This document shows, piece by piece, positions 5,067 through 61,790 of a stretch of DNA of 64,000 nt. The notes beneath the pieces were generated by a model. That model did not search any database. It was not told the DNA's origin and worked only from the letters and a program-made list of their open reading frames with translations. Each line of letters opens with the position of its first letter. Position 1 is the stretch's first letter. Source of the DNA: Ignavibacteria bacterium (GTDB taxonomy: Bacteria; Bacteroidota; Ignavibacteria; Kapaibacteriales; Kapaibacteriaceae); assembly GCA_013204605.1 (NCBI GenBank), contig JABMNI010000021.1, forward strand, positions 70,424 through 134,423, in the 5' to 3' direction. The translations under genes were made by a program, and so were the position numbers.

Positions 5067-5740
5067 TGGCAGCAAAAAAATCTTCCCAGGCAAAAGAATC
5101 TGATAACGCAAAGGCGGCGCGTTTACAGAAAATTTTAATCCTTCTGAAAGGGGCTTACCCAGACGCTAGAGTAGGACTAAACTTTGAAAATGCGTTTGAG
5201 TTATTGATTGCAACCATGTTAAGTGCTCAATGCACTGATGAACGTGTAAATCAAGTTTGCGAAGAACTCTTTAAAAGATTTACGTCACCCTCTGACTTTG
5301 TTGCTGCGCCACTTGAGGAAATTGAGCAAGCAATTTTCAGCACCGGATTTTACAGGAATAAAGCCAAGAATATCAAGGCTTGTTGTGAAACACTACTGAT
5401 TAGATACCAGGGACAAATCCCGCGTACGCTTGATGAGTTGGTTAACCTGCCTGGGGTGGGTAGAAAGACCGCAAATTGCGTGTTAAGCAATTGCTACAAT
5501 ATTCCTGGAATAACCGTTGACACGCATGTAATTCGAATCAGTAAACTACTAGGGCTTGTAAAAATTACCGACCCAGTAAAAATTGAGTTCGCGTTGATGG
5601 AGTTAATGCCAAAAACATCTTGGAATGAGTTTGATCTCTTAATAATTACGCACGGACGTCGTACCTGCAAGGCTAGAAAGCCAAATTGCGCGGAGTGTGC
5701 AATTTCAAAACTATGTCCAAGTGCATTTACTTTTGCTTAA
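5066..5740 (+). CDS. nth: Endonuclease III (DNA glycosylase/AP lyase)
   Basis: Removes oxidised pyrimidines and cleaves AP sites in base-excision repair. The helix-hairpin-helix LPGVGRKTAN carries the catalytic Lys. VDTHVIR holds the catalytic Asp. The C-terminus has the full 4Fe-4S cluster pattern Cys-x6-Cys-x2-Cys-x5-Cys (residues ~200-217). Length, 224 residues, is normal with a short Lys/Ser-rich N-terminal extension. The start overlaps the preceding stop by one base. One ARGGGGCT motif (5148-5155) is embedded in codons for Lys-Gly-Ala. Confidence 0.96.
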   Translation: MAAKKSSQAKESDNAKAARLQKILILLKGAYPDARVGLNFENAFELLIATMLSAQCTDERVNQVCEELFKRFTSPSDFVAAPLEEIEQAIFSTGFYRNKAKNIKACCETLLIRYQGQIPRTLDELVNLPGVGRKTANCVLSNCYNIPGITVDTHVIRISKLLGLVKITDPVKIEFALMELMPKTSWNEFDLLIITHGRRTCKARKPNCAECAISKLCPSAFTFA

Positions 5741-5835: not shown

Positions 5836-7821
5836 TTGAATTCCATTAGAATTGTCATAATCGCCGTTTTAATTTCCATTAGCACCCTTGTTTTGAATGG
5901 ACAAGAACGCCGTCCGGAGTACGGACTTTTGTTGGGAATAGGATTAAACAACCATTCCGCCTCTTTCACTCAGCTAGGCACCTACGCTTCTTGTTGTCCC
6001 GAATTTACCAGCGGATCTGGTACTGGTTTAAGTGCTGGAGTATTTTACACAGCGCCATTTTCCAGACTGTTTAGGCTTCAGTTTCGGCTGACGTACAGCA
6101 CGGAGTCGGGTTCATTGTTGTACGACGAACGCTCATTTGTGGCTGACCTCCGCGATACCGCCAAGGTAGTTGACGCTGTATTCGCTCATGATTTGCAGGC
6201 CACGCTATCGAGCGTTGGTGTCGCGCCTTTAGCCGTCTTCAGAATTTTTGGTGGTTTCGATATAAATGCTGGTTTTCGGATCGCATTAACAACCGCATCG
6301 AGTTTTGTTCAAAAAGAGACGTTATCAAAGCCGGATGACTATGGCGCATACCTTGGTGCCGGAAGAACCTGGGTAAATCATAGTGCCGAAATTCCCGAGG
6401 CCAGCTCGCTGAGGGTAACCGGGCAAATTGGAGCCCGATACGTATTGCCTTTGAACTCAAAAAAGACGTTCTTTCTTGCGCCAGACATTCAGTACCATAT
6501 ACCCATTACCGGTGTAGCAAGCGGAGTCACTTGGAACGTTTCTCAGTTGGCAGTTTCACTCAGCGTTGGATGGACTCCCGAATCCAAGGTGGTTGTTGAT
6601 ACCTTCCAGGCCCCAATTCCACCGCCCCCAGCCATTGTTGTTACACCTCCGCCTCCTACTACGCATTTCGACGTGTACGGAGTTCAGGAAGACGGATCGG
6701 AGAGTTTGAATCCGCAGATAGTTGTGGAAGAAGTAAACGTTGTAGATTTTTTACCGATGCTCGGTCACGTGTATTTCGATGTTGGATCAAGTCTGATCCC
6801 AGAAAGATATTTGACTGCATCTGAGTTAGCAGTTAAAGACACCTCTAATCTCTCTGTTATGGATGCCATACATGGAATGCCGGGAATTGTAGCTAAACGC
6901 ATGCACGGAAGCCCTAGTAGCATAATAACCTTGGTTGGTACAACATCGGAAGAAACTGGAGACAATGGGCTCGCATTGGCTCAAGCTCGGGCACAAAGCG
7001 TTCGTGAATTATTGATAAAGTTTGGAATAACTGCGGATAGAATAAAGCTTGAATCAAGAAAGTTACCGAAGCTCCCAACAAGATCCAGTGAAGTATCCGG
7101 TGTTGACTTTGCGTTTGCGGAAAACCGCAGGGTCGAGATAACATCACTCAGGGCTTCGATACTTGGGCCCTACTTGCTACAATCGAAAAAGAGAACCATA
7201 AAGCCCCTTGGAATAAAGTTGAATACTAGGACGGAATCTCGCGCAGGCGTTGAGTCTAAGGTGTTGACAATAAAGCAAGATACGGCAGTCATGTACACAA
7301 ACAGGAATCTACAAATCGACGGTGAGTATTTTGTAAATCTACAGTCTCAGATCAACAGAGATTGGACAGAAGCACCACCTTTGGCTGAGTTTTCAATTAC
7401 TGATAGTTTGGGAGTGTCGGCAAAGACTTCCAGGACGATTCCAATTTCATTGCTCACACTTCAAAAGAAGCGTTCAGAACGAATTGCGGATGTGGAAATA
7501 GAGCGTTACAGTCTGATTTTGTTTGGATTCAACGATGTTACGATAGACGGGGAGAATGAAAGATTGCTTGAATATGTTAAGTCGAGAGTGCGTTCAAAAT
7601 CTGTTGTGAAAATAATTGGAATGACGGATCAGTTGGGCAGTGATGAGTACAATCGGAGTCTGTCGAAACGAAGAGCGCTTGAGGTTGCAAGAATATTGGG
7701 TCTGTCAGAGGCCAAGGTAGAAGCTTTAGGGGAAGACAGTCCGCGATTCACAAATGAGCTTCCAGAAGGACGTGCTTACAATCGAACCGTGATGATTGAA
7801 ATCGCAACTCCCACTGATTAG
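5836..7821 (+). CDS. Outer-membrane protein with beta-barrel-like N-terminus and two OmpA domains (copy A)
   Basis: The frame is open from 5686, but an ATG there would overlap nth and add ~50 odd residues. TTG at 5836 places a signal peptide (VIIAVLISISTLVLNGQ) at the N-terminus, so I choose it. Residues ~30-260 form alternating beta strands with a CCPEF motif, and a Pro-rich linker follows. Two OmpA-type peptidoglycan-binding domains follow at ~310-440 and ~560-660; each ends in the family's asparagine/arginine pattern (ENRRVEI, YNRTVMIEI). The gene at 12268 shares the same plan, including the CCPEF motif, so the two are paralogues. It is probably anchored between outer membrane and peptidoglycan. 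Partner is unknown; the neighbouring T9SS-tagged protein is a candidate. Confidence 0.82.
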   Translation: MNSIRIVIIAVLISISTLVLNGQERRPEYGLLLGIGLNNHSASFTQLGTYASCCPEFTSGSGTGLSAGVFYTAPFSRLFRLQFRLTYSTESGSLLYDERSFVADLRDTAKVVDAVFAHDLQATLSSVGVAPLAVFRIFGGFDINAGFRIALTTASSFVQKETLSKPDDYGAYLGAGRTWVNHSAEIPEASSLRVTGQIGARYVLPLNSKKTFFLAPDIQYHIPITGVASGVTWNVSQLAVSLSVGWTPESKVVVDTFQAPIPPPPAIVVTPPPPTTHFDVYGVQEDGSESLNPQIVVEEVNVVDFLPMLGHVYFDVGSSLIPERYLTASELAVKDTSNLSVMDAIHGMPGIVAKRMHGSPSSIITLVGTTSEETGDNGLALAQARAQSVRELLIKFGITADRIKLESRKLPKLPTRSSEVSGVDFAFAENRRVEITSLRASILGPYLLQSKKRTIKPLGIKLNTRTESRAGVESKVLTIKQDTAVMYTNRNLQIDGEYFVNLQSQINRDWTEAPPLAEFSITDSLGVSAKTSRTIPISLLTLQKKRSERIADVEIERYSLILFGFNDVTIDGENERLLEYVKSRVRSKSVVKIIGMTDQLGSDEYNRSLSKRRALEVARILGLSEAKVEALGEDSPRFTNELPEGRAYNRTVMIEIATPTD

Positions 7822-7966
7822 TGTAAATAGCCATAATTAGTGTGAATACCCTTTTTAGAGTCAATTCCATAAGTATTGTTCTACTTAAAAGTCTGGTTAT
7901 TGGTAACTTGGGGAGTTTTTGAAAGTAGGTCAAAGTGTGTTTCGAACATTAATTAGCAGGTGAGCA

Positions 7967-10900
7967 ATGAGGGTGCAGAACGTGGCGACCATAATAGTCG
8001 CTTTTCTCGCAGCCGTGGGTTTGGTGTTTTCGCAATCGATAGTAATTGTAAATACCAACGCACGCACTTTTCCATCGGTAACTGTAAAGGCATATTCCTT
8101 TGATCCTACTGGGGCTCTGCAGAATATTGATAAAGGCGACGTTTCAGTTTCTGATGCAAGTTTGACGGTAGATCACACGGTGACATGTGACCAGCCCACA
8201 AGTGGCCGAGCGCTATCTGTAGTGGTAATGTGCGACGTTTCATCGTCTGCAAACGATGGTACACCGAGTGCAATCGTTTTGGCAAAGGCCGGAGCACTAG
8301 CAATTCCAAAAATTGCTGCAGCCACGTCGGACGAAATAGCACTGCTCTCCTTCGATCAAGGCGCAACGCTTAGATATGGCCTTTCCACAGATAAGGTGAA
8401 ATATGAAACTGCAGTAAATAATTTAGTGAAAGGTAGTGGAACTAATCTTACGAACGGATTGTTGTCAACGCCTATGGGTGCACTTGTCCATTTACAGAAC
8501 GCAAAAAACCAAAGGGCGTTAATCATATTTCTGGAATCCCCTACGTCGATCAGTGTATTGCCAGTTTTATCGCAGGCGAGAACGTACCGAATTCCAATAT
8601 ACATAGTGGCGTTGCGCACTCAGCTGACAGAGGAATTGAAACGAGTTGCAGATAGTAGTGGTGGAGCGTGGACCGAAAACGTAACCACGGTGGCCGAGGC
8701 ACAAACGTTTGCGCGGGCCTACGCAGCGCATGCTAAGAATTTGCCTGGGTGTAATATTTCATGGGTAACAAAATCACCGTGTACTGAAATTCACCCGGTG
8801 TCTATTGCCAGAGGATCTTCACTACGAGCATTAACGTACACCGCTGCCACTACACTATTGTCGGGACTACAGTTTTCGACAACGGGAATCGAGTTTGGGA
8901 TTTCTGGCGTCCCAATAGAGCGTAAAGTGACAATTACGGCCCGTAATGCCGACGTTACAATAAATTCTGCAGCAATGGCTTCTGGACCATTTACATTAGT
9001 TACACCTATAGCGGCTGGAACTGTAGTAAAAAAGGATGCCTCTATAGATATCACAATCAAATACACCCCACTTAATGCAGTTGGAATTTATGGTACTTTA
9101 CTTTTTGCTACGGATGCCTGCAGAGTGAGCCCATTGTATTTTCACGGTGGAGCATTAACTGATGGCCAACGTATTAAAATTGAAACACCACTTGAGGGCG
9201 CCAAATTTTTGGCAGGAAGCACTACGAATATTGCGTGGAGTAATACGCTGCCGGATGACCTTGTGCGAATTGATGTTTCGTATGACAATGGGACAACATG
9301 GCAATCTGTAGCTGAAGCTGCGAGTGGCTTGAAATACAAATGGCTTGTTGGACCGAAGGTTAGTAATGAAGTTAAATTCCGCATTCAAAGGACGCTAATT
9401 GACAGTTCAAAAATCGTCATTTACCGTGGGAACTCTCAGCCCGTTTACGATGCAACATTCATCAATGATAATTCTTCTGTAGTGTTAGGAGGGCATGACG
9501 GTACAGTAAGACAGTTTAACGCTATAACCGGGGCTTCAGAAAAGTTACTTGGCACGCACTCAGATTGGGTATGGAGTGTTGCAGCCCACCCCAATTTGCC
9601 AATTGTGGCAACTGGAAGTCACGATGCTACCGTAAGAATTTGGAATTATACAACTGGCGAACGCGTGGCCACCATACCATCAGGATCTAGGGTATGGTGT
9701 GTAAACTTCTCGCCGGATGGGAAAAAATTGATAATTGGTTCAGAACGTTTGTTCTCTATCTATACCGTGGGCGAATGGCAAAATGCCGATACAACGGTAT
9801 TTATTTCTGATGGTCCTGTTTATAACGCAAAATATAGTGGAACTGGAAACCGGTTCGTGATAACTCACGGACGGTTGGCAACAATCTATAATTCTACTAC
9901 ACTTGCCGAAGTGAAAACCCTAACGGGTCACACCGCAGTTGTGTACACAGCGGCACTGAATTCTGATGGATCGAAAGCATGCACCGGTGGTGCTGATTTT
10001 ACGTTAAGAATTTGGAATGGAGAAACCGGTAGCCTGACTAAAACCATTACTCCGGCTGTTGGATCTGTGTTGGCTACGCAATACGCCCCAGACGGCAACA
10101 AACTAGTGGCCAGCGGTGTTGATGGTGTTGCGAAAGTTTATGAAGCGCAGACACTGAAGTTGTTGCACACATTTGCCGGCCACCAAGGAATAGTGTACGG
10201 AACTAAGTATAATAATACCGGTAAAAAATTGATTACTGCTTCGACTGATTACACAGCTAGATCTTGGGATATTGAAGACGCAAAACTTGTTGAAGACTCT
10301 ACGAAGTACACCGTGTCAATTCACAGCGGCGAGCCCACGGCGCAGTCTGTAAATTTCGGTTCGGTTGTGATTGGCACGGGTAAAGACATTCGTTCCGATG
10401 TAGTTTCAAATGGAGGCACAGAGCCCCTTTCAATAATTTCTGCTCGTTTGATCAGCGGCAATATCGACGAATTCGACATTACATCAACCTTCGCGCCTTT
10501 CACCTTAGAAGCGGGTGCAAAACTATCGTTAGTCGCAAATTTTGAGCCGCTTGCTGTGGGAGCGCGGGCCGCTACTGTTGAAGTATTGACTGGTGTTGGA
10601 CCAGTGCTGGTTGAACTAACGGGCTCTGGTGTTGGAAGAGAGTTAAATATACCAGTGGTAGTGAATTTTGGTCGGCACATAGCACTAACTACCATTGTGG
10701 ATTCACTTATTGCTATCAAGCTACCTGCAGGAAACCAAGGACCGGAAACAATTACGAAGATTACTTTGAGTGGTGTTCAGTCTAATCACTTTTCTATAGT
10801 GTCCGGTGGTGAAGGGTTCACCCTGACTGGTAATCAACAACACTCATTGACTTTGCGATTTCAACCATTAGACCTCGGAAAATTTGCTGCGGTAATTGAG

Positions 10901-12268
10901 ATTACACTTGATAATGGTCAAGTACGAATAATTAGATTGTACGGCGAGGGAACGGGCGACGCCTCGGTTACTTTTTCATCAACTGGAATTTTGTTTGAAA
11001 CTGACAAGTGCAGTGCTGTCCCTAGCGCAAAAGTCATTAAGCTAAGGAACAACGGAAATTCGAGTTTAACCGTGTACGCAGCCATTATCGATGGTGTGAA
11101 CGCTGCTGAATTTGCTTTAACCTCACTGGGAACATTCCCAATTGAAATTCCCCCCGTTTCTGAACGCGATCTTGAAATTACATTTACACCTCAGACAGCT
11201 GGTGTTAAGGATGCACGACTTATTGTTTCTACTAACGCTATTAATGCTGACAATGGGACCTCGACTATCCCACTGATTGCTAGAAAAGATTCGTTTGGAT
11301 TTGAATTGACAAGACCTACCGTGAATTTCAATAATATTGCCGAGGGCGATGCCGCAGTTGAACGCTTGCTTTTATTAAACACCGGTACCGTGGGGTTACG
11401 TTGGAGCAGAAACCCAATTGATCTCGGTTCATTTAGAATTGAATCCGTTATACCGGATGTAACGCCTCCCGGATCATTTTCCGAGATTACTGTCCGCTTT
11501 ATGGGTGGCACGGTTGGAACTCCTTATTCAGCTACGTACAACTTTGTTGATTCAACTTGTGGAAGAACGCAAACATTAATAATGAATGCTTCAGTTCGCA
11601 GCTACATTGGATGCACGCTTCGTGCTGCGACTACATCTGGTCGCACCGGTAGTGTCACGGCTGTTCCTGTGTACATAACAAAAAAAGTGAACTTCGATCG
11701 TACAAACATCACAACTATTCGCGCGCGAATGTTAGTAAACGGAACTCTCCTCACGCCGACGGGCGACAAGGGTACGTTACGCGCAGATGGAATGCGGGAA
11801 TTCACGATTGATATTCCAATTCCGTCGTCAGATTCGTTGGCTACAACCCTTAATTTCAACACAACATGGGGTAACGTTACAGCTTCGGTTGTTGTGTTTG
11901 ATTTAGTAACGACAGATGATACGGTTTTGGTTCGCACTCAAGACGGTAGCGTATTGATCGAAGATATTTGCCGTCAGGGTGGCCCTCGATTAATCAGTCT
12001 AAAGGCGAATAGTGCATCAATTAAGTTTTGGCCGCAACCGGCCACGGGGGAGACTTACGCCGATGTAAGTATTCTTGAAAGGGGGCTCACTTCAATAAAC
12101 ATGGTAGACATAAATGGCAGAATGGTTATGCGTATTGCGGATCAGTATTTCGATCCCGGTGTATATAGTATACCAGTTCTAGTTACAGGGCTCGAGAACG
12201 GACTTTACTTCGTTGTAATGCAAACACCTACTCAAAGATTTTCGACACGTTTTGAGGTGGTGAGATAA
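7967..12268 (+). CDS. Giant secreted protein: vWA domain, seven-bladed WD40 propeller, ASPM/HYDIN-like repeats, T9SS sorting domain
   Basis: 1433 residues. Signal peptide at 1-22 (ending GLVFSQ). A vWA domain at ~80-265 has a MIDAS DVSSS motif, although the usual third acidic loop is degenerate. An Ig-like/choice-of-anchor region spans ~270-480. Seven WD40-like blades occupy ~488-775, with the repeated pattern GH...VWSV/VYTA...GS/GGxDxTxRIWN. Several choice-of-anchor-D (HYDIN/ASH-like) beta domains follow at ~785-1150. The C-terminal ~80 residues are a T9SS type A sorting domain (WPQPATGE ... MVDINGRMV ... GLENGLYFVVM). It should be exported by T9SS and displayed at the surface. WD40 and vWA folds suggest scaffolding or adhesion; no enzyme motif is seen. 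Its stop overlaps the next gene by one base (TAATG). Confidence 0.85.
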   Translation: MRVQNVATIIVAFLAAVGLVFSQSIVIVNTNARTFPSVTVKAYSFDPTGALQNIDKGDVSVSDASLTVDHTVTCDQPTSGRALSVVVMCDVSSSANDGTPSAIVLAKAGALAIPKIAAATSDEIALLSFDQGATLRYGLSTDKVKYETAVNNLVKGSGTNLTNGLLSTPMGALVHLQNAKNQRALIIFLESPTSISVLPVLSQARTYRIPIYIVALRTQLTEELKRVADSSGGAWTENVTTVAEAQTFARAYAAHAKNLPGCNISWVTKSPCTEIHPVSIARGSSLRALTYTAATTLLSGLQFSTTGIEFGISGVPIERKVTITARNADVTINSAAMASGPFTLVTPIAAGTVVKKDASIDITIKYTPLNAVGIYGTLLFATDACRVSPLYFHGGALTDGQRIKIETPLEGAKFLAGSTTNIAWSNTLPDDLVRIDVSYDNGTTWQSVAEAASGLKYKWLVGPKVSNEVKFRIQRTLIDSSKIVIYRGNSQPVYDATFINDNSSVVLGGHDGTVRQFNAITGASEKLLGTHSDWVWSVAAHPNLPIVATGSHDATVRIWNYTTGERVATIPSGSRVWCVNFSPDGKKLIIGSERLFSIYTVGEWQNADTTVFISDGPVYNAKYSGTGNRFVITHGRLATIYNSTTLAEVKTLTGHTAVVYTAALNSDGSKACTGGADFTLRIWNGETGSLTKTITPAVGSVLATQYAPDGNKLVASGVDGVAKVYEAQTLKLLHTFAGHQGIVYGTKYNNTGKKLITASTDYTARSWDIEDAKLVEDSTKYTVSIHSGEPTAQSVNFGSVVIGTGKDIRSDVVSNGGTEPLSIISARLISGNIDEFDITSTFAPFTLEAGAKLSLVANFEPLAVGARAATVEVLTGVGPVLVELTGSGVGRELNIPVVVNFGRHIALTTIVDSLIAIKLPAGNQGPETITKITLSGVQSNHFSIVSGGEGFTLTGNQQHSLTLRFQPLDLGKFAAVIEITLDNGQVRIIRLYGEGTGDASVTFSSTGILFETDKCSAVPSAKVIKLRNNGNSSLTVYAAIIDGVNAAEFALTSLGTFPIEIPPVSERDLEITFTPQTAGVKDARLIVSTNAINADNGTSTIPLIARKDSFGFELTRPTVNFNNIAEGDAAVERLLLLNTGTVGLRWSRNPIDLGSFRIESVIPDVTPPGSFSEITVRFMGGTVGTPYSATYNFVDSTCGRTQTLIMNASVRSYIGCTLRAATTSGRTGSVTAVPVYITKKVNFDRTNITTIRARMLVNGTLLTPTGDKGTLRADGMREFTIDIPIPSSDSLATTLNFNTTWGNVTASVVVFDLVTTDDTVLVRTQDGSVLIEDICRQGGPRLISLKANSASIKFWPQPATGETYADVSILERGLTSINMVDINGRMVMRIADQYFDPGVYSIPVLVTGLENGLYFVVMQTPTQRFSTRFEVVR

Positions 12269-14334
12269 TGAAAAATACTATTAATCAACTCGTTGAATCA
12301 CATAGAAATGTGAATAGAATTATGCCTCGTTTAGTTTATGTGATTGCATTTTTGATCGTGGCTGTTGTAGCCATGAAATCTCAAACCGATAACTCTAAGG
12401 AGTCTAGCCTTCGCGTTGGTCTTTTCGGAAATGTCGATTATTCACTCTATTCGGCATCGTTTTCGCAATTGCCTGGAATACCAAACTGCTGTCCTGAATT
12501 CAAAAGCGGATCAGGCGTTGGTTGGTTAGTTGGGTTGTCGTATCTCGCCCCTATTTCCGAAGATCTAAATTTACATTTGCGCATGCACTATGGTGCGCAT
12601 AATGGAATGTTTTCGGTTACAGAGACAAAGGAAATTGTTGACGGCAGTGATAACCGTGTTAATGCTACGATAACTCACGAACTAACTGGTACATTTAATC
12701 AAGTGAGTCTGGAACCATTACTTGGATACAAGGTCACTTCTGAATTCTCTATCCTTGGTGGAGTTACAGTGGGTTATTTGTTGTCATCAAAATTTGAACA
12801 ACAAGAAACACTCTCGTCACCCGACAATGCAGTTTTCAGCACTGGTTCAAAGGTGCGCAATTACGACAACACAGATATTCCAGGCGCACAATCAATTGCA
12901 CTTGGATTAACTGTTGGCGCTAATTATGATATTGCCTTGAATTCGTCGAAGACAGTGTTTTTGAGTCCAGAAGTTCTATTCTCATTTTCACCGTTGTCGG
13001 TTGCGAAGGATGTGAGTTGGACAATCCAGCATCTTCGAGGCGGTCTGCAATTGAGCTTCATTCCGCCAGCTATAGAGGACACTTTGTCAGATTATGAGCT
13101 TTACGAAGTTGTACGTGCCATAAAGCCCCCTACCAAGGGCACTCCGGGCGTTCAATTTGTATCTGATGTTACGGTATCGGGTTTGAGTTCTGATGGCAGA
13201 CAGGTAGCTGTTTCTAGTGTGAAAGTTGAAGAGTTTGAATCAAATCGGATTCGTCCAATTCTTCCATACGTGTTTTTCGACGAAATGTCGGCAACCATCC
13301 CGCAGCGATATCCAAGTGTGAATGAAACGCAGCGTGAAAACTATAGCATGGATAATTTTTACAATCTCGATGCCATGGTTACCTACTATCAACTTCTCAA
13401 CATTGTTGGTAGGCGCATGGAGGACAATCCTGCCGCTACAATAACCTTGACGGGTTGTGGTGATAAATCAGAATCTGGAGTGGCAGATATGGGTACCCGC
13501 CGAGCATCGGCCGTAAAGAACTATTTGACAAGCAATTGGGGTATCAGCGACAGCCGTATTACAACAATGGGCCGTGAATTACCTGAGCAAGCGTCCAATT
13601 CAGCCGACGCGGATGGCAGAGAAGAGAATAGACGCGTAGAAATTTCAAGCAATAGTTCGGTTATTTTGGCCCCAGTAAGTTCAAAGGATACTTTAAGAAG
13701 TGTTGAACCAGCCGGACTTAGGTTTTCGCCCACTATTGATCCGCGAGTGCCAATTCATTCATGGACACTTTGGGTAACTAGCGGAGATAGGATAATTAAA
13801 GCCTTTCACGACGGCGATCCGGTTCCAGCATCGGTTGACTGGCGGATTGCAGATCAGGGTGGAAATCATATCAAGAATACTACTCAGTTAAAGTATTTAG
13901 TAGCAGTTCGCGATAGTGCCAGCCAGTTGATTCCGTCGGCTACTAAAACGATTCCTGTTACGGAGATTACTCTTGCGAGTAAGTTGAAATCTGGCGGACC
14001 TGATAAGACTGTGGATCGTTATTCAATGATCTTGTTCCCTTTTGACAAGTCAGATTTAACTGTGGACAATATGGAGATTACACAAAACATTAAGAATAAC
14101 ATCCAACCTGGAGCCCGGGTTAGTATCATTGGTTATACTGATAGGTCTGGCGGGGAAGAATACAATCAGAAACTTAGCGAGCAGCGTGCGAAGTCTGTGG
14201 CGCGATCTTTGAGTCAATCTGAATCGGCCGCTACTGGCGTGGGTGAGCGTCTACCATTGTACGACAACAATTCCCCAGAAGGTAGATTTTACTCGCGGAC
14301 GGTGGAAGTTTTTGTTGAGACTGATCGCAAGTAA
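12268..14334 (+). CDS. Outer-membrane protein with beta-barrel-like N-terminus and two OmpA domains (copy B)
   Basis: 688 residues, paralogous to the protein at 5836. It has the same order: signal segment, beta-rich region with a conserved CCPEF motif, an OmpA domain at ~332-457 (YVFFDEMSATIP ... ENRRVEIS), a beta spacer, and a second OmpA domain at ~588-685 (LFPFDKSDLT ... GYTDRSGGEEYNQ). ATG 12268 overlaps the upstream stop (TAATG), which favours coupled translation; the internal ATG at 12322 would give a more usual signal peptide. Placing two such proteins on either side of one T9SS-tagged propeller protein suggests that they form or anchor one surface assembly. That is inference. Confidence 0.82.
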   Translation: MKNTINQLVESHRNVNRIMPRLVYVIAFLIVAVVAMKSQTDNSKESSLRVGLFGNVDYSLYSASFSQLPGIPNCCPEFKSGSGVGWLVGLSYLAPISEDLNLHLRMHYGAHNGMFSVTETKEIVDGSDNRVNATITHELTGTFNQVSLEPLLGYKVTSEFSILGGVTVGYLLSSKFEQQETLSSPDNAVFSTGSKVRNYDNTDIPGAQSIALGLTVGANYDIALNSSKTVFLSPEVLFSFSPLSVAKDVSWTIQHLRGGLQLSFIPPAIEDTLSDYELYEVVRAIKPPTKGTPGVQFVSDVTVSGLSSDGRQVAVSSVKVEEFESNRIRPILPYVFFDEMSATIPQRYPSVNETQRENYSMDNFYNLDAMVTYYQLLNIVGRRMEDNPAATITLTGCGDKSESGVADMGTRRASAVKNYLTSNWGISDSRITTMGRELPEQASNSADADGREENRRVEISSNSSVILAPVSSKDTLRSVEPAGLRFSPTIDPRVPIHSWTLWVTSGDRIIKAFHDGDPVPASVDWRIADQGGNHIKNTTQLKYLVAVRDSASQLIPSATKTIPVTEITLASKLKSGGPDKTVDRYSMILFPFDKSDLTVDNMEITQNIKNNIQPGARVSIIGYTDRSGGEEYNQKLSEQRAKSVARSLSQSESAATGVGERLPLYDNNSPEGRFYSRTVEVFVETDRK

Positions 14335-15461
14335 TGAAGTTGTTGATCTTTAACTGGCAGGATAGAACACATCCTCTGAGTGGCGGAGCTGAAGTTCACT
14401 TACACGAAATATTTGGGCGAATGGCCCGAGCAGGTCACGACGTTACGCTTGTGTGCTGTGGTCATAGGGGCGCCAAACGGAAAGAGCAAATGGATGGTAT
14501 GACCGTGTATCGCATTGGTAGACGGACAACCTTCAATTACTCGGTTTCGTGGTGGTGGCGATTTCACGGAAAGAAAATTAATCCGGATATCGTTATTGAT
14601 GACATAAACAAAATCCCATTCTTCACTCCCCGCTTCGTTAAAAAACCAATATTGGCGCTAATCCATCACTTCTTTGGTGACAGTATATTCAAAGAAGTTG
14701 GCATTGCAGCTGGTTCGTATGTGAAGTATTTCGAAGACAAGGTCAGCAAGGTATATTCTCACACCAGGGTATGCGTAGTATCGGAGAGCACCAAACTTGA
14801 ATGTTTGGAAAAGGGCTTTTCGGCATCTCAAATTGATATTGTGTACAACGCCATCAATCAGTCCGATTTTCCTATGCGTGTGGGAGTTAAGGCCGAAGTT
14901 CCGACTGTTGCATCGTTTGGCAGACTCAAAAAATATAAATCAATCGATCACCTTGTTCAAGCAATTGCACTTGTTAAAAACACTATTCCAAACGTCAGGT
15001 TAAGAATTGCAGGAACTGGTGATGAACAGCCTACTCTTGTTACCTTAGTCCACCAAATGCAATTGCACGACAATGTTGAATTCTGTGGCTACATTTCAGA
15101 CACTGATAAAGCCCCTTTACTTTCTTCAGCACACGTGGTTGTGAACACTAGCATAAAAGAAGGTTGGGGTATAACTAACCTTGAGGCTAACGCGTGTGGT
15201 ACAACGGTGATCAGTGCCGACGTTCCAGGACTACGTGATTCTGTTCGAGACGGTTACTCTGGTCTGCTATATCCGTATGGCGACGTAGAAGCATTGGCTC
15301 GTCTGATTGAACGTGTACTGGTGGATGTGGAATTACGCAACCGTCTAAGCAATGGAGCGGTTGAATGGGCTTCAACTTTTACCTGGGAACGAAGTGCGCG
15401 TGAAATGACCGATATTTGCGAAAAGACAATAGCACAATGGAACGCATCTCGACCTTCATGA
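14334..15461 (+). CDS. Family 4 glycosyltransferase
   Basis: 375-residue GT-B enzyme. The N-terminal glycine-rich acceptor loop LSGGAEVHLHEI, the linker PTVASFGRLKKYKSIDHL and the donor-site KEGWGITNLEANACGT (the E-x7-E retaining-GT motif) define GT4. No signal peptide or membrane span, so it is cytosolic. It is coupled by TAATG to the OmpA copy B gene and overlaps the next gene by 25 nt. The context suggests that it glycosylates, or supplies glycan for, the surface proteins of this locus, but donor and acceptor are not visible from sequence. Confidence 0.9.
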   Translation: MKLLIFNWQDRTHPLSGGAEVHLHEIFGRMARAGHDVTLVCCGHRGAKRKEQMDGMTVYRIGRRTTFNYSVSWWWRFHGKKINPDIVIDDINKIPFFTPRFVKKPILALIHHFFGDSIFKEVGIAAGSYVKYFEDKVSKVYSHTRVCVVSESTKLECLEKGFSASQIDIVYNAINQSDFPMRVGVKAEVPTVASFGRLKKYKSIDHLVQAIALVKNTIPNVRLRIAGTGDEQPTLVTLVHQMQLHDNVEFCGYISDTDKAPLLSSAHVVVNTSIKEGWGITNLEANACGTTVISADVPGLRDSVRDGYSGLLYPYGDVEALARLIERVLVDVELRNRLSNGAVEWASTFTWERSAREMTDICEKTIAQWNASRPS

Positions 15462-17464
15462 TATTTGCATTGGTTCTACTGACACTTGAATCAATCCCCT
15501 CACTGGCTCAAAGATTAATTGATAGCAAGGGTACAGACTTTTGGGTTGCATTTCCTCCCAACGATAGAGGTGGAGGAAGTGCTGATTCGTACTTGTCTAT
15601 CTTCATAACGGGCGACAAGACTACCAACGTAAAATTAGCAGCTCGCCGTTTAACCGGTGAAATTGATTCAATAAAATTTGTCGTGCCAGCTAATACAGTT
15701 GTTAGCACTAGATTGGAATTCGAGCTGTATGAATTGGTAGGGAGAAATTATCCATCCGGACCAAACAACGATAATCAGCGTGCTTCTCCTGCAAGTGTGC
15801 ACATTCTTGCCGATGAAGAAGTTTCTGTATATGCACTTACAAGAGAGGTTAAAACATCCGACGCGTGGCTCGTTATGCCTGTTGATGCTCTTGGTACTGA
15901 TTATAGAGTCATATCGTATTCGTCCGATGTGAGATCTGCCGGTTTCTTCCCAGTATACTTCCCTAGCCAATTTGTGGTTATAGCGACGGAAGACAATACC
16001 TCGGTTTCATTTTCCCTATCAACAAAAAGAACTGCAACTAATAGTAACTCTGGTGACTTCAGTACGGTTTTGAACAGAGGCGAATCGTATCTAGTTCAGG
16101 CTTACATGAACAGCTCGAATAGGAATGATGATTTAACTGGAAGTAGAGTGCGTTCTGACAAACCCGTAGTTGTTTTGGGTAGTCACAAAAGAGCACAAGT
16201 ACCAATACTATCAAACGATGCGTCTCGAGATATACTGGTAGAACAATTGCCTGCCGTAGACACTTGGGGCAAGAATTACGTTGTAGTACCTCTAGTGCCA
16301 CCCGCCAACGCAGTAAAAGATGGACAGACTGACGTTACTATTTGTCGTGTTTTAGCCCATCAGGATAGCAGCATGGTGAGCATCAATGGTGCGCCTGGAT
16401 GGAGGCTAAATGCGGGGATTAGGTGGGACATGCCCCTAACGAAACCGCTTGTGATTACATCCAACTATCCCGTTTTAGTTGCAATAATAGATAGATCGGC
16501 AAACAGAAGTGGATCTGGAAACGCGTCCCTTGATGGTGACCCGAGCTTGACCATTATTCCTCCGATTGAACAGTTCCTGGACAAGTATCGGGTAGTTTCC
16601 ATTGAGCCTAGAGAACCCGGAAACGAATTTTATAATGCGCATTACCTCACACTAACTTCACCTTTGCTTGCAAGCGGAACGTTGAAAGTTGATGGAGTTA
16701 CGCAACCCGCACTGACGCCCATACCGGGTTCGACCCATGGCTACGTTCATGTACCTGTAAAGAATGGTTCGCATTTCGTTCAAGGCGATTCCGCATTTGG
16801 AATTGTGATTTATGGCTATGGCCCCGCAGAGTCATACGGCTACACCGGCGGCATGGCCTTCGAAAAGTTGTTTGCGCCGTCAATTCGATTGCGAGCGTTT
16901 AATCTATCTGGAAAACCTGGAAAACGCGACTCCCTAATAGTGGTTGTGGATTCAATATCAGAGCAGGCTAGTTTCGATGCTATGGGTGCACGTAACGTGT
17001 CTGGCGAAATTCGGTTCAACCAAACCATGTTTGTACCAGATAGCCCCCTAACAGCAGACTTCGCGGAATACGTGAACTACAAATTCACTCATTCGTTTGA
17101 CACACTGCGAATTGGTGACACAGTAGCAACAATAACGGGCACGTTAGTATTGGGAATGAACGACGTTGATAGTATTGTTCCCCACTCAATAGTTTGGAAG
17201 CAAATCGACAATTCACTAGTGTCGGTAAAATCTACTTCTATACCTGGCTTAATCACCACGTTAGAAATTTGCGATAAAAATGGAATGCGGCTTTTTTCGC
17301 CTCTGCAAGCTCAACCTAATTTTGTTCAGTTGTATTCATACAGCGGCCTGCTACTTCAGGTAGTTCCTGATAGTCAATTTGAAAACGTAACTGAAGCGCT
17401 CGGCAATGGCGTGTATTTTGTTAAAAGGGGCTTAACAATTACCAAACTGTTAGTTGCTCGATAA
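15437..17464 (+). CDS. IgGFc-binding-family secreted protein with putative T9SS C-terminal signal
   Basis: I place the start at ATG 15437, which gives a signal peptide (FMIFALVLLTLESIPSLAQ); the frame opens at 15416. The ~430 residues after cleavage match the IgGFc-binding N-terminal domain family: GTDFWVAFPPN, SVYALTREVKTSDAWLVMP, SDKPVVVLGSHKRAQVP and VDTWGKNYVVVP are family hallmarks. The last ~70 residues (YSYSGLLLQV ... GNGVYFVKRGLTITKLLVAR) look like a divergent T9SS type A sorting domain. The protein is probably surface-exposed or adhesin-like. The family name comes from a mammalian protein and does not mean that IgG is the ligand here. Last gene of the 5836-17464 plus-strand run. Confidence 0.75.
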   Translation: MERISTFMIFALVLLTLESIPSLAQRLIDSKGTDFWVAFPPNDRGGGSADSYLSIFITGDKTTNVKLAARRLTGEIDSIKFVVPANTVVSTRLEFELYELVGRNYPSGPNNDNQRASPASVHILADEEVSVYALTREVKTSDAWLVMPVDALGTDYRVISYSSDVRSAGFFPVYFPSQFVVIATEDNTSVSFSLSTKRTATNSNSGDFSTVLNRGESYLVQAYMNSSNRNDDLTGSRVRSDKPVVVLGSHKRAQVPILSNDASRDILVEQLPAVDTWGKNYVVVPLVPPANAVKDGQTDVTICRVLAHQDSSMVSINGAPGWRLNAGIRWDMPLTKPLVITSNYPVLVAIIDRSANRSGSGNASLDGDPSLTIIPPIEQFLDKYRVVSIEPREPGNEFYNAHYLTLTSPLLASGTLKVDGVTQPALTPIPGSTHGYVHVPVKNGSHFVQGDSAFGIVIYGYGPAESYGYTGGMAFEKLFAPSIRLRAFNLSGKPGKRDSLIVVVDSISEQASFDAMGARNVSGEIRFNQTMFVPDSPLTADFAEYVNYKFTHSFDTLRIGDTVATITGTLVLGMNDVDSIVPHSIVWKQIDNSLVSVKSTSIPGLITTLEICDKNGMRLFSPLQAQPNFVQLYSYSGLLLQVVPDSQFENVTEALGNGVYFVKRGLTITKLLVAR

Positions 17465-59657: not shown

Positions 59658-61790
59658 ATGAAAAATTATGATGCTCACCATATCCGCAACGTCGCAGTAT
59701 TAGGGCATGCGGGGTCAGGAAAAACCACGCTCGCTGAATGTATGCTCTTCGAATCGGGCGAAATTACCCGTCGGGGCACGGTTGAAGAGCAGAACACTGT
59801 GTCTGATTTTCACGAAATTGAACATGAAAGAAATTCTTCTGTATTAGCCAGTACTTTATTTGCCGAATGGCGCGATTATAAAATTAACATCATAGATACC
59901 CCGGGGTTTATAGACTATGTCGGCGAAGTAATTGGTGCCCTAAGAGTAGCCGATACTGGGATTATGGTACTAAACTCGCATCATGGTGTTGAGGTGGGTA
60001 CGGAGACAATCTGGAAGTATACAAAGCAGTTTCAAACGCCAACAATGTTTGTAGTTAACAAGGTCGACCACGAACAAAGTAACTTTTGGAAAACAGTAGA
60101 TCAAGCTAAAGATCGATTTGGTAGAGAAGTTACCGTTGTGCAATATCCTCTGAATGAGGGCACAGGATTTAACACGATTATTGATGTATTGAAAATGACG
60201 GCGTATGAATTTGGTCCGCAAGGGGGCAAGCCTGCAAAGAAATCAATTCCAGAGTCTGAGTCTGAGCGCGCTGCCCTTTTACACAATCAATTGGTGGAAA
60301 TCATTGCTGAGAACGATGAAAATCTCATGGAGCACTACCTTGAAAAAGGTGAGTTAGATGAAGAGGAAATGAGATTGGGTCTGACTACATCATTGATAAA
60401 CCGGCAGTTGTTTCCATTATTCTGCACGTCGGCTAAACATGATATGGGAACCGGAAGAATTATGACATTTATCGATGTCGTAATTCCGGCTCCGGTTGAA
60501 ATGCCAGGAATTCTCACAACTAATGGGCAATTGTTAAAGGCCGATCCTAATGGGAAAGCTTGTCTATTTGTTTACAAGTCTATGAGTGAAGCGAATGTTG
60601 GTGACATGTCATACTTCAAAGTGTATTCCGGGACAGTTAAACACGGGATGGACTTGGTTAATGAGCACACGGGAGTAACAGAGAGAATCGGTCAGCTGTT
60701 CGCTGTAAACGGCCATAAAAGATTTGAAGTTGATCAACTCGAGGCCGGCGATATAGGCGCGGCTGTTAAACTCAAAAACACTCATGTAAACGATACGCTG
60801 CATCAGAAGGGTTTTAATCTGATCATTCCTCCTATTGAGTTTCCTCCACCCAAGGTCAGGTCATCAGTTGTTTCTAATCGTAAGGGTGACGAAGACAAGC
60901 TCGGCCTAGCTTTAAATCAGTTGCACGAGGAAGATCGTACACTTGTTGTAGAGCATTCAAGTGAGTTGAATCAGATAATACTCCTTGGTCAAGGAGAAAT
61001 GCATTTACAGACTGCTAAATACAGATTGAACAATAGGTTTAAACTTGACGTTTCATTTCAACCCGCGAAAGTGCCGTATCGCGAGACAATTAGAAAAAGT
61101 GTAGATACATCATATCGTCACAAAAAGCAATCGGGAGGCGCCGGTCAATTCGCAGAAGTTCACATGCGTGTCGAGCCGTATTTCGAAGGCATGCCAGCTC
61201 CAGCTGGAATAAATGTTAGAGGTACGGAAGAACACCAACTAGCTTGGGGCGGAAAACTTGTGTTTATAAATGGGATAGTTGGAGGTGTGATTGACCAACG
61301 GTTTTTACCTGCAATTCTCAAAGGCGTTATGGAGAAAATGTATGAGGGTCCTATTACAGGTTCGTACGTTCGTGACGTCAGAGTGAGTGTTTATGATGGT
61401 AAAATGCATGCGGTTGATTCTAACGAAGCCGCTTTTAAAACTGCTGGGCGAATGGCATTTAAAGATGCTTTCGTAAAAGCTGACCCGCAACTATTGGAGC
61501 CCATTTACAATGTTGAGGTGGTTATACCTGAGGATCAAGTAGGCGACGTTATGAGTGATCTTCCGGTTCGCCGAGGAGAGATCGTTGGAATCACCGTTGA
61601 CGGTCACTATCAAACGTTACAGTGCAGGATGCCATTAATGGAACTTGACAATTATTCCACTATTTTGAGAAGTCTAACACAAGGACGGGCTTCGCATTCC
61701 GCAGAGTTTACTGAATATGTCCCAGTTCCGGCAAATCTTCAACAAAAGTTTCACTCAGAATATCTTCTGCACCTACATGAGGATGACTGA
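59658..61790 (+). CDS. Elongation factor G paralogue (EF-G2-like) with altered GTPase centre
   Basis: 710 residues with the five EF-G domains. P-loop GHAGSGKTT, NKVD (G4) and SAKHDMG (G5) are present. The G3 motif reads DTPGFIDYVGEV: canonical EF-G has DTPGH with the catalytic His, here replaced by Phe. The G2/switch I region (HERNSSVLAS) lacks the canonical RGIT. Domain IV (GGAGQFAEVHMRV) is intact. Bacteroides EF-G2 proteins with similar changes have been reported to translocate without GTP hydrolysis. So this is probably an alternative translocase rather than the main EF-G; the main fusA should be elsewhere, near rpsL/rpsG. Confidence 0.88.
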   Translation: MKNYDAHHIRNVAVLGHAGSGKTTLAECMLFESGEITRRGTVEEQNTVSDFHEIEHERNSSVLASTLFAEWRDYKINIIDTPGFIDYVGEVIGALRVADTGIMVLNSHHGVEVGTETIWKYTKQFQTPTMFVVNKVDHEQSNFWKTVDQAKDRFGREVTVVQYPLNEGTGFNTIIDVLKMTAYEFGPQGGKPAKKSIPESESERAALLHNQLVEIIAENDENLMEHYLEKGELDEEEMRLGLTTSLINRQLFPLFCTSAKHDMGTGRIMTFIDVVIPAPVEMPGILTTNGQLLKADPNGKACLFVYKSMSEANVGDMSYFKVYSGTVKHGMDLVNEHTGVTERIGQLFAVNGHKRFEVDQLEAGDIGAAVKLKNTHVNDTLHQKGFNLIIPPIEFPPPKVRSSVVSNRKGDEDKLGLALNQLHEEDRTLVVEHSSELNQIILLGQGEMHLQTAKYRLNNRFKLDVSFQPAKVPYRETIRKSVDTSYRHKKQSGGAGQFAEVHMRVEPYFEGMPAPAGINVRGTEEHQLAWGGKLVFINGIVGGVIDQRFLPAILKGVMEKMYEGPITGSYVRDVRVSVYDGKMHAVDSNEAAFKTAGRMAFKDAFVKADPQLLEPIYNVEVVIPEDQVGDVMSDLPVRRGEIVGITVDGHYQTLQCRMPLMELDNYSTILRSLTQGRASHSAEFTEYVPVPANLQQKFHSEYLLHLHEDD

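Follow-up and report, generated by a model that had tools for sequence, protein, structure and literature searches.

Introduction

It is not yet settled how cargos of the type IX secretion system (T9SS) are sorted to their different final sites at the cell surface. In the species that have been studied, type A cargos are directed to PorV and type B cargos to barrels of the PorP/SprF family. Here we describe a five-gene locus (positions 5836-17464) in a 64,000-nucleotide stretch of DNA from an Ignavibacteria bacterium (GenBank assembly GCA_013204605.1, contig JABMNI010000021.1; order Kapaibacteriales, family Kapaibacteriaceae); this whole stretch is hereafter called the window. At the center of the locus, the gene for a large secreted-type protein that we term PROP is located between the genes for OmpA-A and OmpA-B, each of which combines an outer membrane barrel with two OmpA domains. 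Comparisons among relatives suggest that such barrel-OmpA-OmpA proteins are probably dedicated docking anchors of secreted T9SS cargos.

Among the systems already described, PorP/SprF barrels provide the most direct precedent. The barrel gene is located directly downstream from the gene for its type B cargo, and the barrel is needed for secretion of that cargo (PMC12618676), which it receives via the cargo C-terminal domain (PMC12618676; PMC9143113). The OmpA domain of a further protein, PorE, ties the surface-cargo complex to peptidoglycan (PMC9143113).

Comparison with described systems

The locus resembles the SprB-SprF and PG1035-PorP pairs in that a barrel gene lies directly downstream from a cargo gene, with one barrel per cargo and a cargo C-terminal domain that is apparently what is recognized. 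The two kinds of barrel are nevertheless distinct, because PorP/SprF is a 14-stranded FadL-type barrel, whereas OmpA-B is modeled as an 8-stranded OmpA-type barrel. Moreover, the cargo here scores at the cut-off of the type A sorting model, and the peptidoglycan-binding domains share a chain with the barrel. Neither OmpA-A, OmpA-B, nor anything else in their genome matches the PorP/SprF model TIGR03519. No sampled member of the order exceeds the cut-off for this model, whereas 17 of 80 genomes in the phylum do so, and the phylum search thus serves as a positive control for the negative result. Given the absence of a TIGR03519 match and the 8 strands rather than 14, assignment of the locus to the PorP/SprF system was rejected.

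PorE offers a different likeness, namely an OmpA domain that links a surface-cargo complex to peptidoglycan. However, PorE is a separate periplasmic lipoprotein beside PorP, with TPR, beta-propeller, carboxypeptidase-like, and OmpA domains, whereas anchor and barrel are one protein here and OmpA-A and OmpA-B have no propeller. Identity with PorE was likewise rejected, since model NF052230 (cut-off 600 bits) gives just 36.3 bits for OmpA-B and 23.1 for OmpA-A.

OmpA and OprF share with the proteins described here both the barrel fold and the peptidoglycan-binding fold (1bxw, 3td3, 5u1h). They carry one periplasmic OmpA domain, in contrast to the two present here, which are separated by a beta-sandwich and of which the first is degenerate. 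In addition, the proteins in question have many paralogues, and their family is associated with T9SS cargos. A last parallel is TpgA, a peptidoglycan-associated partner encoded beside its trimeric autotransporter adhesin. TpgA likewise is an OmpA-domain protein encoded with its surface adhesin, but it serves another secretion route and has no barrel, and the NF047726 match (45 bits, cut-off 350) reflects only the shared OmpA domain. In the literature searched on type IX secretion or OmpA in Kapabacteria, and on OmpA-family partners of the T9SS, no description of the pairing reported below was found.

A recurring pairing of T9SS cargo genes with barrel-OmpA-OmpA genes

The five genes are as follows:

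5836..7821, + strand: OmpA-A, with a signal peptide, an outer membrane beta-barrel with a CC loop, and two OmpA domains; 661 amino acids
7967..12268, + strand: PROP, a secreted-type vWA / seven-bladed WD40 / Ig-ASH / T9SS-sorting protein; 1433 amino acids
12268..14334, + strand: OmpA-B, the barrel-OmpA-Ig-OmpA partner, whose first base lies 1 nucleotide (nt) inside the PROP stop codon
14334..15461, + strand: GT4 glycosyltransferase (PF00534, PF13439), beside OmpA-B throughout the family
15437..17464, + strand: IgGFc-binding-family secreted-type protein (PF17517, E 4e-58); alternative start TTG 15416

The order contains a large family of two-part surface cassettes, to which the locus belongs. 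In its own genome (2.69 Mb, 86 contigs), the barrel/OmpA-OmpA family comprises 18 genes, of which three encode the barrel only and some lack the barrel. For 8/18 of these genes, the immediately preceding gene on the same strand, at a spacing of -46 to +17 nt, encodes a T9SS-type cargo. For two further genes, including OmpA-A, such a cargo gene lies directly downstream, and another 8/18 have no adjacent cargo. Adjacency was tallied from search matches and retrieved regions. Two of the cargos give no TIGR04183 match and were called by their homology to the PROP C-terminus. With an assumed background of 5%, an adjacency of 8/17 corresponds to p ~6e-7. None of the five single-OmpA-domain genes in this genome has an adjacent sorting-domain cargo.

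The pairing extends well beyond this genome. The count was extended to eight genomes that represent eight other families of the order. All 60 full-length barrel-OmpA-OmpA members among the matches listed were included, and 46 of them have an upstream neighbor on the same strand. Counting TIGR04183 within the last 120 amino acids, a sorting domain is present in 28/46 of these neighbors as opposed to 5/90 non-adjacent control genes (Fisher p 3e-12; p 2e-9 for the upstream enrichment when all 59 are counted). The controls were drawn from the same regions, which partly accounts for any general enrichment of surface genes. Downstream neighbors carry the domain less often (6/35), and many cargo/barrel pairs have a -4 overlap, a spacing of the kind seen in translational coupling. 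Each of the eight genomes yields 5-37 family matches, and family members are plentiful in every genome sampled from the order. At E 1e-40, no match appears in those genomes of the class's other orders that were listed, and three other genomes of the phylum give weaker matches.

At L067 (G030:C69), four propeller-like T9SS genes stand in tandem beside one barrel-OmpA-OmpA gene, and these could share one anchor.

Co-variation and fusion of the two partners

Among 39 cargo/anchor pairs, distances between the last 110 amino acids of the cargo correlate best with those between partner barrels (r 0.40, p 2e-4), and less well with those of OmpA domain 2 (0.27) and domain 1 (0.19). The cargo N-terminus gives only 0.12 with the barrel. 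The correlation of cargo C-terminus and barrel persists when pairs are permuted within genomes (0.39, p 2e-4) and when the other domains are controlled for (0.34, p 0.004).

Paired cargos also have a distinctive C-terminus. Just ahead of the sorting domain, 14/39 paired cargos carry the signature C..GG.RL, compared with 0/40 T9SS cargos of the own genome that are unpaired; the pattern was picked post hoc from the paired set, and its p-value is therefore optimistic. When a profile is built from other families, it ranks the paired cargos of the own genome above the unpaired ones (p 2e-4). An outlier among the latter, L206 (G000:C35:30782-31583), is an unpaired T9SS cargo with a C-terminus score of the paired type, and may use a distant anchor gene.

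In the genus g13, the two halves are joined. Three proteins (L064:8051-12907, L065:7924-12714, and L170:5231-10102) fuse vWA-WD40-ASH to tandem OmpA domains. They align with the anchor model from position 293-294 onward, such that the barrel is missing, and no sorting domain was found in any of the three. The fusions thus connect the cargo and anchor halves, and the parts that have been lost are exactly the proposed interface. G028:C6 may hold a further fusion of the same kind.

These observations bear on whether the pairing could reflect co-expression only. OmpA-type tethers link the outer membrane to the wall in other bacteria. The proteins described here could be general tethers of this sort, made alongside heavy T9SS cargo to stabilize the envelope without specific contact, as would agree with the 8/18 family genes of the own genome that stand apart from any cargo and with the housekeeping neighbors of the locus, which have the same synteny (see below). 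We consider this unlikely, however, because it is the barrel and not a tethering OmpA domain that co-varies best with the cargo C-terminus, because this C-terminus is distinct in paired cargos, and because propeller-OmpA fusions exist.

Architecture of OmpA-A and OmpA-B

The preliminary description of the locus, made from the sequence alone, had presented OmpA-A and OmpA-B as double-OmpA peptidoglycan anchors. Both proteins indeed match PF00691 in two stretches (64.8 and 77.8 bits; cut-off 27.2), but the N-terminal 8-stranded barrel had been overlooked. The parts that can be distinguished are:

7522..7785, + strand: OmpA-A second OmpA domain, peptidoglycan-binding type (best PF00691 stretch, residues 563-650); the site D and R are kept, MTDQLGSDEYNRSLSKRRA
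12412..13059, + strand: OmpA-B 8-stranded outer membrane barrel, residues 49-264 (structure model)
13321..13650, + strand: OmpA-B first OmpA domain; the Asp of the diaminopimelate site is not conserved in the family
13675..13968, + strand: OmpA-B beta-sandwich separating the two OmpA domains (structure model)
14002..14328, + strand: OmpA-B second OmpA domain, with D625 and R640 invariant

In the structure model of OmpA-B (mean pLDDT 86.4, 27 aligned sequences), the order is barrel, short beta domain, OmpA domain 1, beta-sandwich, and OmpA domain 2. A Foldseek search with this model retrieves the E. coli OmpA barrel (1bxw) together with domains from OprF and Acinetobacter OmpA that bind peptidoglycan, and the barrel is also visible as a weak match to PF13568. 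OmpA-A and OmpA-B are 32% identical. A twin-cysteine motif, NCCPEF (CC at 12487-12492), occupies the loop between barrel strands 1 and 2 and is present in nearly all aligned members, including OmpA-A.

Within OmpA domain 2, D625 and R640 are 15 residues apart and invariant in 27/27 aligned members, in the context TDxxG...LSxxRA that is typical of solved OmpA domains. We take this pair to be the diaminopimelate site, as in Acinetobacter OmpA. The Asp/Arg pair of OmpA domain 1 is not likewise invariant among the same 27 members.

Conservation of this site is relevant to the alternative that the barrels are shuttles rather than anchors, fetching cargo from the translocon as a requirement for secretion while final attachment occurs otherwise, by lipid transfer of the PorU type or by release. 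A precedent exists in PorP/SprF, which is encoded directly downstream from its type B cargo and is required for secretion of that cargo (PMC12618676). A PorU-like T9SS sortase is also encoded on the same contig outside the window (G000:C14:48345-51968, minus strand), though its 157.7 bits fall below the curated cut-off of 420. Against this, an invariant peptidoglycan-binding Asp/Arg pair would be superfluous for a pure shuttle, and a dedicated partner for each cargo suggests lasting, stoichiometric binding. We therefore regard a role in transport alone as decidedly improbable.

Architecture and predicted export of PROP

The vWA domain, seven-bladed propeller, and T9SS sorting domain that had been reported within one chain were found again, the last of these at the cut-off only. 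The segments of PROP are:

8219..8704, + strand: vWA domain, residues 85-246 (PF13519 32.5 bits, PF00092 22.9 bits), metal site partly kept
9413..10327, + strand: seven-bladed WD40 propeller, residues ~483-787 (structure model; PF00400; PDB matches such as 5yzv and 7big)
11579..12001, + strand: pre-sorting beta-sandwich, closing with the C..GG.RL signature at 11969-11992
12029..12253, + strand: T9SS C-terminal sorting domain (TIGR04183)

The vWA metal site retains DxSxS, the Asp of its third motif is replaced by Glu (FLES), and the Thr varies among orthologues. A structure model spans residues 262-1433 (mean pLDDT 84.9), and a manual count of its strands gives seven blades made up of 27 strands and one closing strand. 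PDB structure matches agree, since the best compact solved relatives of the propeller are seven-bladed WD40 domains. Domain matches confirmed the Ig/ASH domains as well. The combination had been thought unusual; this view was abandoned, as paralogues with vWA, propeller, ASH, and sorting domains are numerous across the order.

Recognition of the sorting domain is marginal: TIGR04183 scores 20.7 bits in the protein scan and 23.8 bits in the genome scan (cut-off 23). Of the NCBIfam sorting models, this type A model was matched and no type B model was. Components for export are encoded in the genome, including SprA (875.5 bits summed, cut-off 200) and two members of the PorV family (151 and 144 bits, cut-off 90).

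A sorting domain at the cut-off, together with vWA-WD40-ASH-OmpA fusions that have neither barrel nor sorting domain, could mean that the domain does not operate as a T9SS signal and that PROP functions with the OmpA proteins as a scaffold inside the periplasm. Such a location is nonetheless very improbable. The C-terminal Ig-like domain is kept in 18/18 PROP orthologues and is modeled as a separate strand-rich domain, the genome encodes a T9SS translocon, and the fusions are limited to one genus among the loci seen.

A candidate docking mechanism

The data lead us to lean, by a modest degree, toward a reading in which each barrel-OmpA-OmpA protein is an anchor for a specific T9SS cargo, docking it through the cargo C-terminal domain and fastening it to peptidoglycan. 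PROP would cross the outer membrane via the T9SS translocon, and its C-terminal domain would then be received by the barrel of its cognate OmpA-B. With the second OmpA domain of OmpA-B gripping peptidoglycan, the propeller would be displayed on a post fixed to the cell wall, with the vWA domain and propeller as the putative outward part that binds a ligand or provides adhesion. OmpA-A could be a second, more diverged mount, and perhaps a second subunit. By analogy, a barrel-OmpA-OmpA protein would merge the roles of PorP/SprF and PorE in one chain. Somewhat more tentatively, the order may have exchanged PorP/SprF and PorE for a single-chain, 8-stranded receptor that has its own peptidoglycan clamp and exists in ~5-37 matching copies per genome, each for its own cargo.

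Several points weigh against docking. Pairs that were duplicated together would co-vary without contact, a concern that permutation within genomes lessens and does not remove. Roughly half of the family genes lack an adjacent cargo, and at L061:7955-12313 a full-length propeller homologue (26%) has no barrel-OmpA-OmpA gene alongside. The cargo sorting domain is of type A, which is handled by PorV in Flavobacterium and Porphyromonas, and PorV-type proteins are present here. The g13 fusions should stay periplasmic because they have neither barrel nor sorting domain, which is a misfit with an obligatory surface role. Finally, the strict C..GG.RL pattern is found in just 14/39 paired cargos.

If cargo-specific anchoring is correct, then cargo-specific docking has arisen on an unrelated barrel that carries its own wall clamp. 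A large paralogous family, most of which has no name, would also gain a function in an order that has been little studied. Furthermore, gene order alone yields predictions of cargo-receptor partnerships that are testable.

Conservation and organization of the five-gene locus

The order of the five genes on one strand, as well as the GT4 and IgGFc-binding identities of the last two, were confirmed, the latter by domain matches. Overlaps of 1 nt had been described between the genes, and these occur at two of the four junctions: PROP/OmpA-B (TAATG at 12266) and OmpA-B/GT4 (TAATG at 14332). In contrast, OmpA-A and PROP are separated by a gap of 145 nt, and the GT4 and IgGFc genes overlap by 25 nt. 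The start of OmpA-A is taken as TTG 5836, giving 661 amino acids in agreement with the orthologue starts in L048 and L049, and the longest open reading frame begins at 5686. The IgGFc-family protein scores only 12.7 bits for the sorting domain. Upstream from the five genes is the endonuclease III gene nth (HhH-GPD, PF00730), and downstream on the opposite strand is ccmF.

PROP orthologues (36-43% identical) were found in all but one of 22 genomes of the same family, two of them split across contigs; the exception, G020, gives only weaker matches. Around these orthologues, the order DUF4159-rsmG / GT2-nth-OmpA-A-PROP-OmpA-B-GT4-IgGFc / ccmF is kept. Conservation of the five-gene order thus holds within the family, save that L041 and L047 have no IgGFc-family gene between GT4 and ccmF, and the set is not kept in the loci examined outside the family. 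Its absence from these two genomes indicates that the other genes of the locus can do without the IgGFc-family gene. Synteny within the family is weak evidence of function, since the housekeeping neighbors are equally kept. Its use alone as proof of function was rejected for this reason, as nth, rsmG, the DUF4159 gene, and ccmF hold the same order.

Among orthologues, PROP co-varies most strongly with OmpA-B (raw 0.71, partial 0.44), compared with OmpA-A (0.52, 0.23) and GT4 (0.44, 0.26). This sequence comparison favors OmpA-B, the putative mount encoded downstream, as the partner of PROP. The suggestion that the OmpA proteins mount the T9SS protein has gained ground from the recurrent pairing, the co-variation of C-terminus and barrel, and the fusions.

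The same cannot be said for the larger assembly put forward in the preliminary description, namely a surface organelle whose propeller would be mounted on both OmpA proteins and glycosylated by GT4, with the IgGFc-family protein as a fifth part. OmpA-A, PROP, OmpA-B, and GT4 are indeed linked in every same-family genome whose contig permits a check, and GT4 immediately follows OmpA-B in 17 relatives. Yet the housekeeping flanks are kept just as well, the IgGFc gene is missing from two genomes, and neither GT4 nor IgGFc adjoins other barrel-OmpA-OmpA cassettes in the loci examined. A defined organelle of five genes is accordingly the least credible of the explanations considered. Glycosylation of PROP by GT4 is likewise not supported, since adjacency is the sole link between the two, and GT4 is no general part of the cassette. 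Elsewhere in the window, positions 59658-61790 encode an ordinary elongation-factor-G-like GTPase of 710 amino acids.

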